Positions 19,295 through 22,672 of a stretch of 64,000 nucleotides of DNA are shown here, piece by piece (within the stretch, counting starts at the first letter, position 1; every line of letters begins with the position of its first letter). Source of the DNA: Herminiimonas arsenicoxydans (GTDB lineage Bacteria; Pseudomonadota; Gammaproteobacteria; Burkholderiales; Burkholderiaceae_D); contig CU207211.1 of NCBI GenBank assembly GCA_000026125.1, forward strand, positions 124,001-188,000, read 5' to 3'. Below the pieces are notes generated by a model. The model was given only the letters and a program-made list of their open reading frames with translations, made no database searches and was not told the origin of the DNA. The translations under genes and the position numbers were made by a program.

Positions 19295-19334
19295 GACGGC
19301 GCGTGCAGCAATCGCTATTGCACAAGGCGCCGTC
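19295..19334. terminator. Hairpin between convergent ptsI and chromate transporter genes
   Basis: GACGGCGC (19295-19302) pairs with GCGCCGTC (19327-19334), and the interior folds further as GCAAT-CGCT-ATTGC. There is no T run on either strand, so termination by itself would be weak. It occupies the whole gap and overlaps the end of the minus-strand gene. Confidence 0.4.
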
Positions 19335-19917
19335 ACACCACCCCCAGCCATCCCAGAACCGCGCCGCCAGCCAGCAGCCACAGTATCCCGATGCGGGTTT
19401 TCAGTATCAGCATGACGGCGCTCAACGTGAGCAGCCAGAGCGGCCAGTCTTCGCGGAACGTATTTTGCGTACTGGCCATGATCCAGCCGGTAGCCAGCAC
19501 TAGGCCGACCACCACCGGCCCCATGCCCAGCTTGAAGGCACGCACCGCACGCAATTGACGGTTGCGATGCACCCAGCGTGTTGCCATATAGGTGAACACC
19601 GTGCTGGGCAGCAGCAGACCCACCATGCAGAGCGCCATGCCGAGCAAACCGTTGGCCATGCCGCCGGCGTTCAAACCTACATTCCATCCCATCAATGCCA
19701 CGAACAGAATGTTGGGGCCGGGCGCAGCCTGCGCGATCGTGATCGAGTTGCTGAATTGCGGATCGGTAAGCCAGTGCTGTTCGGAGACCAGGTAGCGATG
19801 CATCTCCGGTGCCGATGCCAGCGCGCCGCCCAGCGACAGCAGCGACAGCGACATGAAGTGCAGGAGCAGATGTATCCAATCGCTTGTTTGCAATGAAAGT
19901 TGCAGTGTCTGGTTCAT
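19333..19917 (-). CDS. Chromate transporter, C-terminal-type subunit
   Basis: This 194-residue membrane protein is one half of a short-chain ChrA pair. It carries the CHR repeat with LLSLGGALASAPEMHRYLV and the AQAAPGPNILFVALMG motif, then four to five hydrophobic helices. The ATG at 19917 overlaps the partner's stop (ATGA), so the two are translationally coupled and presumably form a heterodimer. ChrA proteins export chromate by proton antiport; the pair could also move another oxyanion. Confidence 0.85.
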   Translation of the reverse strand: MNQTLQLSLQTSDWIHLLLHFMSLSLLSLGGALASAPEMHRYLVSEQHWLTDPQFSNSITIAQAAPGPNILFVALMGWNVGLNAGGMANGLLGMALCMVGLLLPSTVFTYMATRWVHRNRQLRAVRAFKLGMGPVVVGLVLATGWIMASTQNTFREDWPLWLLTLSAVMLILKTRIGILWLLAGGAVLGWLGVV

Positions 19918-20504
19918 GAAGCCAGCTTCCGGTAAGCCAGTATGCAACCGAGAAGACCGAGGCCGAACAGCGGATAGGCCAGCGGCAGCCGCAGCAAGGC
20001 AATGGCGATAAAGCACGCCATGCTCAAGACGCCGCAGATGTACGGCCCCAATGGATTGTTTTTCAAGCCGCGTATCAGTCTGATGCCGGTTGCCAGGATC
20101 AATCCTGCCGCGACGGCGCCCATCGCGCGCAGTGCGTGCGCCACTTGAGGATGATTGGCGTAAGGCGCATACAGGACGGCGATGATCATGATCAGCACCA
20201 GCGGCAGTGTCAGCATGCCGGCAAAGGCGGCGAGCGCGCCCGGCAGGCCGAAATAGCGACCGCCGATGATGAGCGACATGTTGACGACATTCGGACCCGG
20301 CATGATTTGCGCGACGGCCCAGTCCTCAATAAATTCTTCCTGCGTCATCCATTTCTTTTTTTCCACCAGCTCGCGCTGCACGACCGCCAGCACGCCGCCG
20401 AAGCCCTGCAGTGCGAGTAGCGTGAAGGAAAAAAACAGGTCGGCCAGGGATTGCGGGCACGGCCCTTCGCGTAGCGGGCGTTCGTCGGTTTGCAGGATAT
20501 CCAT
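19914..20504 (-). CDS. Chromate transporter, N-terminal-type subunit
   Basis: The 196-residue membrane protein is the other half of the split ChrA pair, with the motif LQGFGGVLAVVQRELVEKK and VAQIMPGPNVVNMSLIIGG, the first-repeat signature, followed by hydrophobic helices. Long-chain ChrA joins both repeats in one polypeptide of about 400 residues; here each repeat is a separate gene. No regulator such as ChrB is seen nearby. Confidence 0.85.
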   Translation of the reverse strand: MDILQTDERPLREGPCPQSLADLFFSFTLLALQGFGGVLAVVQRELVEKKKWMTQEEFIEDWAVAQIMPGPNVVNMSLIIGGRYFGLPGALAAFAGMLTLPLVLIMIIAVLYAPYANHPQVAHALRAMGAVAAGLILATGIRLIRGLKNNPLGPYICGVLSMACFIAIALLRLPLAYPLFGLGLLGCILAYRKLAS

Positions 20505-20707
20505 TCAATACGGAAAGAAGAGCGACTGAATCACGCGGTTACGATGACTATCGCTTCCGGCCAGTTGGCAGTTTAGCATTCGGCACGGTTGCACACTTGC
20601 GCTAAATGATGGCTGGGTCGACGCGGCGAATCACTGAATTGTCATTTTCATACGCCGCCGGCCAGCTGCGGCGACGTGCAACAATGGTAAAACCGTACGT
20701 CCTGCGT

Positions 20708-20736
20708 TTGACGTCGCGGGACGACTTGTTTATTCT
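20708..20736 (+). promoter_or_regulatory. Sigma-70 promoter of metX
   Basis: TTGACG (20708-20713) and TATTCT (20731-20736) are separated by exactly 17 bases. The predicted start near 20743 is where the SAM-II aptamer begins. Confidence 0.6.
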
Positions 20737-20742
20737 TACGTC

Positions 20743-20795
20743 ATGGCGCCGATTTGACATCAGCTTGCGGGCGCATCATAAATACGGCTAAAGCG
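20743..20795 (+). promoter_or_regulatory. SAM-II riboswitch aptamer
   Basis: The segment has the SAM-II hallmarks in order: the P1 arm GGCGCC, the conserved GATTTGA, a loop with CTTGC, the P1 return GGGCGC, an A-rich ATCATAAAT and the 3' pseudoknot strand CGGCTAAAG. GCGCC (20746-20750) pairs with GGCGC (20770-20774). It lies 120 bases upstream of metX, the usual place for this class in proteobacteria. Unlike most SAM-II elements, an intrinsic terminator follows, with GGCTAAA (20786-20792) complementary to TTTAGCC at its start. Confidence 0.85.
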
Positions 20796-20817
20796 TACTC
20801 ATTGTTTGAGTCTCGAA

Positions 20818-20857
20818 TTTAGCCCGGTAAGCTGCTGCTTTCGGGCTTTTTTGTTTT
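20818..20857 (+). terminator. Intrinsic terminator in the metX leader
   Basis: AGCCCG (20821-20826) pairs with CGGGCT (20842-20847), followed by TTTTTTGTTTTTTG. It lies between the SAM-II aptamer and the metX start. TTTAGCC (20818-20824), which includes the 5' arm, can instead pair with GGCTAAA at 20786-20792. The rest of the gap between the chromate genes and metX (20505-20707) shows no credible gene. Confidence 0.8.
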
Positions 20858-20915
20858 TTGTAATACCAGAGAATGCCGGTGTCCCTCGACTGCCTTCTTC
20901 TCCTGAATAGATAAC

Positions 20916-22073
20916 ATGACCTCTCTCGGAATCGTTACGCCGCAATCCATGTTTTTTTCCACGCCGCTGCCTTTGCAGAGCGGCGCGGAAATTACCGACT
21001 ACACACTGGTTTATGAAACCTATGGCACGCTGAATGCCGATCATTCCAATGCCGTGCTGGTGTGCCATGCGCTGAATGCCTCGCACCATGTGGCCGGCAG
21101 TTACAGCGAAGACGCCAGCACCAGGGGCTGGTGGGACAATATGGTGGGCCCGGGCAAGCCGCTTGATACCGATAAATTTTTTGTCATCGGCGTCAACAAT
21201 CTCGGCTCCTGCTTCGGCTCCACCGGCCCCATGCATGCCAATCCGGCGACCGGCAAACCGTATGGCCCACAGTTCCCGGTAGTGACGGTGGAGGATTGGG
21301 TGCAGTCGCAGGCGCGGCTGGCCGATGCGCTGGGTATCCGGCAATTCGCCGCCGTGATGGGCGGCTCTCTGGGCGGCATGCAGGCGCTGGCATGGAGCAT
21401 CCTGTTCCCCGAACGCTTGCGTCATTGCGTGGTGATTGCCTCGACGCCCAAGCTGACCGCGCAGAACATCGCCTTCGACGATGTGGCGCGGCAGGCGATA
21501 CTGACCGATCCCGATTATCACGGCGGCGATTATTACGCGCATGGTGTGGTGCCGAAAAACGGCTTGCGCGTGGCGCGCATGCTGGGCCACATCACCTATC
21601 TGTCGGATGACGACATGGCGGTGAAATTCGGCCGCGACCTGCGTTCCGGCAGCTATCAATTCGGCTTCGGCATCGATTTTGAAATTGAATCGTATCTGCG
21701 CTACCAGGGCGACAAGTTCTCCGAATATTTCGATGCCAATACCTATTTGCTGATCACCAAGGCGCTCGATTATTTCGATCCGGCCAAGGATTTCGGCGGC
21801 GATCTGACCAAAACCTTATCGCATACGCGCGCGCAGTTTTTACTGGTGTCGTTTTCGACCGACTGGCGCTTCGCACCCGAGCGCAGCCATGAAATGGTAC
21901 AGGCGCTGGTCAATAACAAACGTATGGTTACCTATGCGGAAATCGATGCATCGCACGGCCACGACGCCTTCCTGCTGGACGATGCGCGTTACATGAGCGT
22001 GGTGCGGGCGTACTACGAGCGCGTGTACAAGGAAATCGATGGCGGCAGTCTGAAAGCGGGAGCGCAGGTATGA
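20916..22073 (+). CDS. metX: Homoserine O-acyltransferase MetX
   Basis: The 385-residue alpha/beta-hydrolase-fold enzyme activates homoserine for methionine synthesis. The nucleophile is S151 in MGGSLGGMQ, and the other triad members lie in FSTDWRFAP (Asp) and [11 protein letters not shown] (His). The early oxyanion region [14 protein letters not shown] is present. Homologues in this group can use succinyl-CoA or acetyl-CoA, which I cannot settle by eye. Expression is probably lowered by SAM through the leader riboswitch. The stop overlaps metW by 4 bp. Confidence 0.93.
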
Positions 22074-22672
22074 ATTTCGAACAATTAAGCGCCTTGCGTC
22101 CCGATCTGGCTTTCATTGCGCATTGGGTAGGCACCGGCAAGCAGGTGCTCGATCTGGGTTGCGGCGACGGCGTGATGCTGGACTATCTGCAAACCGACAA
22201 GCAATGCAGCGGTTACGGGATAGAAATCGACGACGACAAAATTCCGGAATGCGTGCAGCGCGGCGTCTCGGTGATCCAGCGCGATCTGGAAGCGGGCCTG
22301 GCGATCTTTGCCGATAATTCCTTCGATACGGTGCTGTGTTTATCCGCGCTGCAAATGATGAAGAACGTCGAAGGCGTGCTGCGCGATATTTCGCGCGTCG
22401 GTCGCGATGCCATCGTTTCCTTTCCCAATTTTGCCTACTGGCCGCACCGGATTGCGCTGTTGCGCGGTCGCATGCCGGTGTCGAAAAGCCTGCCGTATGA
22501 ATGGTACGACACGCCCAATCTGCGTTGTGCAACGATCAAGGATTTTGAAGAGCTGGCCAATGAGGTCGGACTGGAAGTGATCGAGTGCGTGGCCTTGCAG
22601 GATGGGCATCCGGTTTCCTTCCTGCCGAACTGGCGCGGCAGTCTGGCGGTATTCCGCCTGCGCAAGAAATAG
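22070..22672 (+). CDS. metW: Methionine biosynthesis protein MetW
   Basis: The 200-residue protein has a class I methyltransferase fold with the SAM-binding motif [12 protein letters not shown] near residue 24 and an [15 protein letters not shown] segment. MetW is paired with MetX in many proteobacteria and has been reported to be needed for its full activity. The ATG overlaps the metX stop, so the two are coupled and share SAM control. Confidence 0.92.

Follow-up and report, generated by a model that had tools for sequence, protein, structure and literature searches.

In the SAM-II riboswitch (RF00521, SAM_alpha), a sensor of S-adenosylmethionine (SAM), a P1 hairpin and a P2 pseudoknot hold the core letters GAUUUG, GCUUGC, and GCUAAAG, with a promoter just 5' of P1, a terminator after P2, and methionine genes downstream. 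Papers are cited here for portions of their text. Putative intrinsic terminators were reported in many SAM-II representatives (Corbino, 2005; PMC1273637), and most SAM-II are described as transcriptional (Huang and Lilley, 2018; PMC6061858). For example, the SAM-II metZ leader of Sinorhizobium meliloti gives the small RNA (sRNA) RZ, and a SAM-induced terminator is predicted in it (PMC9373788). Two further elements were described at the same genes. Beta-proteobacterial metX/metZ leaders were presented as a novel metXZ element with a terminator and a speculative antiterminator (Leyn, 2014; PMC4239095), and a cis-acting role in methionine metabolism was suggested for the sRNA candidate Bp2_Cand287, now RF02424 (Bp2_287), the legend of figure 6A naming the chromate transporter HEAR0151, metX, and metZ (Khoo, 2012; PMC3521395). 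The leader discussed here lies before metX of Herminiimonas arsenicoxydans, in a window that comprises the whole 64,000-nucleotide (nt) stretch analysed (contig CU207211.1, positions 124,001 to 188,000). The order on its plus strand is promoter, aptamer, antiterminator, terminator, U-tract, metX, and metW. With a probability of about 0.8, we read this leader as a riboswitch of SAM-II type, divergent in sequence, that turns metX-metW off by attenuating transcription. A first, sequence-only reading had proposed the same promoter, SAM-II aptamer, and terminator in that order, and the letters and coordinates it quoted all proved right. Its remark that SAM-II usually acts on translation, which would make the terminator notable, was mistaken, as termination is the common mode of SAM-II (PMC2258182; PMC6061858) and SAM-II acting by termination is already known (PMC1273637; PMC2258182; PMC6061858; PMC9373788).

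The covariance model RF00521 aligns to positions 20736-20812 with 27.7 bits (E 1.8e-4). This match stays under the gathering score of 36 bits, and no Rfam family passes at gathering score anywhere in the window. The host genome was searched as a single contig of 3,424,307 bases, where the leader is the top of nine RF00521 matches at E<=10 and the runner-up, at 14.5 bits, scores 13 bits lower. All 14 control genomes also give matches at E<=10, hence only a strong match counts; with the limit set at E<=0.01, a match is present in 27 of 60 relatives and in none of the 14 controls. The cut-off is exceeded by three of the 60 relatives, and 24 of the 27 that match at E<=0.01 remain below it, which implies that the Rfam threshold misses many beta-proteobacterial copies of this leader. 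Among the three is L009 (45.2 bits), a leader of metZ that is built in the same way.

The aptamer spans 20746-20795 and has the SAM-II arrangement of P1 and P2. The P1 hairpin (20746-20774), seen in the RF00521 match and in the pair counts of 38 leaders, joins GCGCC (20746-20750) to GGCGC (20770-20774) and encloses UUU (20753-20755) and GCUUGC (20763-20768). The 3' strand of P2 (20787-20795), placed by the pairs in the window and the same counts, pairs through GC 20787-20788 with 20767-20768, through AAGC 20791-20794 with GCUU 20763-20766, and through G20795 with C20761, while U20789 and A20790 lie outside the helix. The ligand-pocket letters UUU, UU, and UAAA are present at 20753-20755, 20765-20766, and 20789-20792; by our own alignment they would correspond to the SAM-V pocket (PMC6061858). 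SAM-V (RF01826) is a related H-type pseudoknot (PMC6061858), and it was rejected as the class of this leader: RF01826 is not among the matches of the leader and finds none of 30 relatives at E<=1, the value at which 3 of 14 control genomes match, none over the cut-off. The leader shares the architecture and core letters of RF00521 and differs in its score, in a loop strand 2 nt shorter, in having hardly any P2a, in its beta-proteobacterial host, and in a conserved antiterminator for which the P2 3' strand is used. The long P2a of many alpha-proteobacterial SAM-II is not found in the window. Methionine genes, the usual SAM-II context, follow in the form of metX-metW, and the sequence comparison points to a divergent SAM-II-type leader that presumably binds SAM.

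The pseudoknot is conserved. Alignment A1 holds 38 of 57 leaders, with inserts, short linkers, and near-copies excluded; 91.0% of its P1 and P2 cells are standard pairs, 23 cells have changed on both sides, and the covariation score is above all 500 shuffles and every slid version. The covariation comes from P1, columns 32/50, and columns 22/61 (paired in 23 of 36), columns 21/62 being unpaired in most leaders. With a looser pattern that fixes only TTT, TTGC, and GCTAAA, the motifs ATTTG, GCTTGC, and GCTAAA are found in all 30 loci of the first set. A model built from the leaders, R1, matches 54 of 60 relatives (it was trained partly on these genomes and also finds metK leaders) and, among 300 genomes of the order, 222 at E<=1e-3, some of them in the training set. 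Among 80 metX loci of named genomes, 47 lack a pattern aptamer within 1000 nt (a count without a shuffle control; only 24 nt lie upstream in L305), and by our count R1 detects an aptamer in 36.

The direction in which the structure is read matters, since RF02424 matches the minus strand antisense to the riboswitch (20723-20851), at 27.9 bits, well short of its cut-off of 70. A minus-strand sRNA as the functional product would agree with this match and with the place of Bp2_287 among the candidates detected by reverse-transcription PCR in Burkholderia pseudomallei (PMC3521395); it is nevertheless very improbable, as pair counts, gene context, and the sub-threshold score disfavour it. G.U cells outnumber A.C cells in the aptamer (22:3), the antiterminator (19:3), and the metK set described below (8:2), hence the structure is assigned to the plus strand. 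Of 150 genomes of the order, 29 contain an RF02424 match, one of them over the cut-off. In all 30 RF02424 loci (L038-L067) the aptamer motif lies on the other strand; a first pattern detects it in 28 and a second in L047 and L062. The sole match over the cut-off, L038, has metZ downstream on the aptamer strand, and the cDNA of the Burkholderia experiment was primed by oligo(dT)18, which we take as not fixing the strand (PMC3521395). We thus read RF02424 as a family whose model describes the wrong strand, the antisense of a SAM-II-type leader. In the L038 locus (1501-1703), an additional hairpin separates P1 from the P2 3' strand. Bp2_287 and the window leader share one class of locus; they differ in that the former was modelled antisense, and the part of PMC3521395 considered here does not name SAM-II. 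Likewise, the metXZ element resembles the window leader in its genes, clade, pseudoknot, and downstream terminator, and differs in that its antiterminator was placed, as speculation, in regions 3 and 4 (PMC4239095). Very probably, these leaders have already been published as metXZ (taken here from the description, apart from its alignment figure) and, on the opposite strand, as Bp2_287/RF02424. No link of metXZ or RF02424 to SAM-II, and no account of the metK element, was found in a literature search that had most subscription journals and supplements outside its reach.

An intrinsic terminator hairpin folds at 20821-20847 (-15.9 kcal/mol) and runs into the U-tract TTTTTTGTTTTTT at 20847-20859. 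A simple terminator scan did not list this hairpin and listed another site (20698-20723; 1.1 sites expected in shuffles). The fold of 20800-20860 is beaten or equalled by only 1 of 200 shuffles. For the whole leader (20735-20860) the result stands out less, since 16 of 200 shuffles fold equally well. A second hairpin, the antiterminator (20786-20824, -14.5 kcal/mol), is indicated by folding and conservation and is built from GGCUAAA/UUUAGCC, CG/CG, and ACUCA/UGAGU. It overlaps the 5' arm of the terminator by four bases (20821-20824), and it competes with P2 for the same bases of the P2 3' strand. The leader hence contains what marks an attenuator, namely mutually exclusive hairpins that share bases with the aptamer and the terminator. 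The sequence-only reading had seen GGCTAAA (20786-20792) opposite TTTAGCC (20818-20824), both correctly placed, and had asked for their conservation in related metX leaders; the pairing is conserved in the genus, where all 13 genomes searched have TTAGCC 3' of the aptamer and ten have TTTAGCC. By chance, TTTAGCC occurs within 20796-20847 in 0.56% of mononucleotide shuffles.

The arrangement extends well beyond the genus. A survey of 90 distinct aptamers picked a terminator-like hairpin after 89, without a shuffle control and with three picks misplaced. Leaving out L027, L242, and L251 (misplaced hairpin) and L254 (no hairpin), 86 leaders were compared with dinucleotide shuffles in a region from 8 nt before the hairpin to just past its middle. 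Forty leaders have TT[AG]GC there, within the 5' arm of the terminator or next to it, where 4.9 are expected, and 22 have TTTAGC, where 1.2 are expected; by our tally, which counts related leaders apart, the 40 cover 15 GTDB families. The mean energy of the duplex between the P2 strand and the terminator region is -8.2 kcal/mol, against -6.0 in shuffles. Fifteen leaders of the family, selected for GGCTAAAGCG followed by [AG]GCCCG (set A2), fold to similar antiterminators of -10.9 to -15.0 kcal/mol, with small departures in L020, L023, L252, and L260, and in some of them the upper stem changes in pairs (ACUCA/UGAGU, GCUUG/CAAGC). In the named genomes, TTTAGCC follows in 18 of the 33 pattern-positive metX leaders. 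Nine of these 18 are of an Undibacterium type without an obvious terminator. This type has ten leaders (L296, L311, L317, L342, L343, L345, L348, and L350-L352), which are C/T-rich and show no terminator hairpin obvious by eye; GGCTAAA is present in all and TTTAGCC in nine, and their control may differ from that of the window.

In the proposed mechanism, the P2 3' strand (20786-20795) would stay out of P2 when SAM is low and would pair with 20814-20824 once this is transcribed. The antiterminator would then capture the first four bases of the terminator 5' arm, and RNA polymerase would read into metX. With SAM bound, P2 would occupy 20787-20795 and leave 20818-20824 free, the terminator (20821-20847) would form, and transcription would end in the U-tract, giving an RNA of about 110 nt. 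The S. meliloti metZ leader is alike in its predicted SAM-induced terminator and its detected RNA of about 100 nt; it differs in having an alpha-proteobacterial aptamer and measured in vivo responses to the SAM level (PMC9373788), whereas the window is known from sequence. The controlled genes metX, metZ, and metH suit a SAM off-switch.

Folding calculations bear on this mechanism in both directions. For transcripts that end at 20824, 20832, or 20840, the minimum-energy fold includes the antiterminator. The terminator probability of the window leader is 0.17 in free folding and 0.98 with the P2 3' strand blocked. Free against constrained folding, which had been proposed as a check, does not separate the two states of most relatives. 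The aptamer with its alternative terminator and antiterminator, as postulated from the letters, is well supported by comparison, and equilibrium folding gives no proof of the switching logic. In fact, several results weigh against SAM-dependent attenuation or the SAM-II class. The terminator dominates at equilibrium without ligand in 76 of the 86 leaders, and in the window it already reaches 0.96 once P1 forms with the P2 3' strand free; the switch would hence need to be kinetic, depending on the order of synthesis. The duplex energy in the window alone is unexceptional (p 0.29 and 0.10 with two kinds of shuffle), and p<=0.05 is reached in only 36 or 31 of the 86 leaders, the window not among them. 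TT[AG]GC is missing from the region in 46 of the 86, among them the leaders of metH and two members of the family, L034 and L042; in these two the antiterminator complement was not found in the tested region, and an 11-nt P2-strand probe found no antiterminator in the metH leaders. Two of five covariation measures in A2 are within shuffles (128 and 246 of 500). In A1 the five central P2 pairs are invariant, and the constancy of ATTTG, GCTTGC, and GCTAAA is partly one of choice, since the selection pattern contains them. The curated RF00521 score is not reached, and P2a is reduced to the pair C20761-G20795, followed by U.U and A.A; a stable P2a, however, does not define the class, because only 60% of SAM-II have a P2a of 5 bp (PMC6061858).

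The dominance of the terminator at equilibrium would also be expected if a SAM-II-like aptamer were followed by a terminator of fixed rate that SAM does not switch, the short RNA or promoter control being what matters. A precedent exists in S. meliloti metA, where the terminator after a SAM-II aptamer is predicted to be unaffected by SAM (PMC9373788). This explanation would leave the conserved complement of the P2 strand and the conserved antiterminator hairpin without a purpose, and we consider it unlikely.

Related aptamers precede other methionine genes. The second R1 match of the host genome, which was not in the training set, lies before metK (44.2 bits, E 5.8e-9; minus strand of L104, 2569-2626, corresponding to 2922568-2922625 of the host contig). 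Here GAGUUAA replaces GAUUUGA, and after the aptamer comes CGCAGGUU/AACCUGCG, which closes on the start codon. This metK leader has no match in Rfam 15 at E<=5, and 20 further metK leaders have no Rfam match at E<=0.1. A SAH riboswitch (S-adenosylhomocysteine; RF01057, 61.4 bits) lies downstream of the same metK, at 179-257 on the minus strand of L104. A pattern search of two sets of upstream regions, from 90 of 120 genomes, detected the metK element in 15 of the 30 in one set and 17 of the 60 in the other, and 16 more distinct elements came from 20 family loci chosen for their R1 matches. In 34 of the 48 elements (set A3; short linkers, no long loop insert), 95.3% of the pair cells are standard and the covariation score is above all shuffles, but pair types are not in excess (467 of 500 shuffles). 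The stretch after the aptamer pairs with the metK ribosome-site region at p<=0.05 in 30 of 47 elements against mononucleotide shuffles (mean -16.0 against -9.5 kcal/mol), and thus the metK leaders, also that of the host genome, apparently carry an anti-Shine-Dalgarno platform.

The metK leaders accordingly look translational, and some SAM-II do act on translation, the solved metX SAM-II being a rare translational one (PMC6061858). At the window, masking of the metX ribosome site on SAM binding is very improbable: 120 nt and a terminator separate the end of the aptamer from the metX ATG, and no clear Shine-Dalgarno sequence is seen by eye before 20916.

Model R2, made from the metK elements, has matches in 156 of 369 genomes from the class; 19 of its loci, judged by eye, comprise three before metK, five before metZ, seven in tandem, and four that were not placed. 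It is rather probable that the window leader belongs to a large, mostly unannotated beta- and gamma-proteobacterial SAM-II lineage with two outputs, termination with an antiterminator formed by the P2 strand (metX, metZ, metH) and Shine-Dalgarno sequestration (metK). If so, homoserine acylation and SAM synthetase would answer to a single kind of SAM sensor in the clade, and the two published orphan elements, metXZ and Bp2_287, would be a SAM-II-type riboswitch. A probable SAM sensor of metX in the clade is thereby named, and the orphan element and the Rfam sRNA family receive a likely identity. Groups with larger alignments may already hold these RNAs, as a 2022 review puts the number of tandem SAM-II at 44; in some of these, a terminator comes first and is followed by control at the ribosome site (PMC9481103). 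Tandem loci were also seen here (L011, L031, L040, L045, L050, L060, L249, L261-L264, L268, L275, and L276), in the order aptamer, terminator, and second aptamer, the last mostly of the ..UUUAA..ACAACUUGC type; their genes were mostly not identified. Nine metH loci (L241-L245, L248, L251, L258, and L259) show by eye a SAM-II-type aptamer with a terminator, and in most of them the loop of the aptamer and the linker contain inserted hairpins. Two of the metH loci were tested, as methionine synthase fragments, in the gene check, as was the metZ of L013. In L245, a GCGGAC/GTCCGC pairing was noticed by eye only.

The promoter is sigma-70-like (TTGACG-17-TATTCT, 20708-20736), from a promoter scan and the hexamers of the genus. 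It is not above chance alone (1 site, 0.5 expected); the -35 and -10 letters are conserved in leaders of the genus, the spacer being variable as judged by eye. Transcription is predicted to start near 20743. A four-codon ATG frame (MAPI) at that same position is the one feature in favour of leader-peptide attenuation, which is hardly credible and was rejected, because the frames listed include no methionine-rich or otherwise suitable one before the terminator.

The regulated frame, 20916-22073 on the plus strand, encodes a MetX of the homoserine O-succinyltransferase type (NF047916, 679.8 bits, cut-off 560; NF001209 also over cut-off), and metW (22070-22672, plus strand, TIGR02081 over cut-off) overlaps its end. 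The succinyl-transferring type fits the finding that in relatives the same aptamer precedes metZ, the gene of O-succinylhomoserine sulfhydrylase. Upstream, chromate-transporter-like genes (19333-20504, model matches below cut-offs) diverge on the minus strand, and hence the terminator serves no upstream gene. The close relatives with names are Herminiimonas and Oxalicibacterium. A contig labelled as a metagenome-assembled genome of Alistipes senegalensis (L354) carries the leader and a metX 75% identical to that of the window, and is probably mislabelled.
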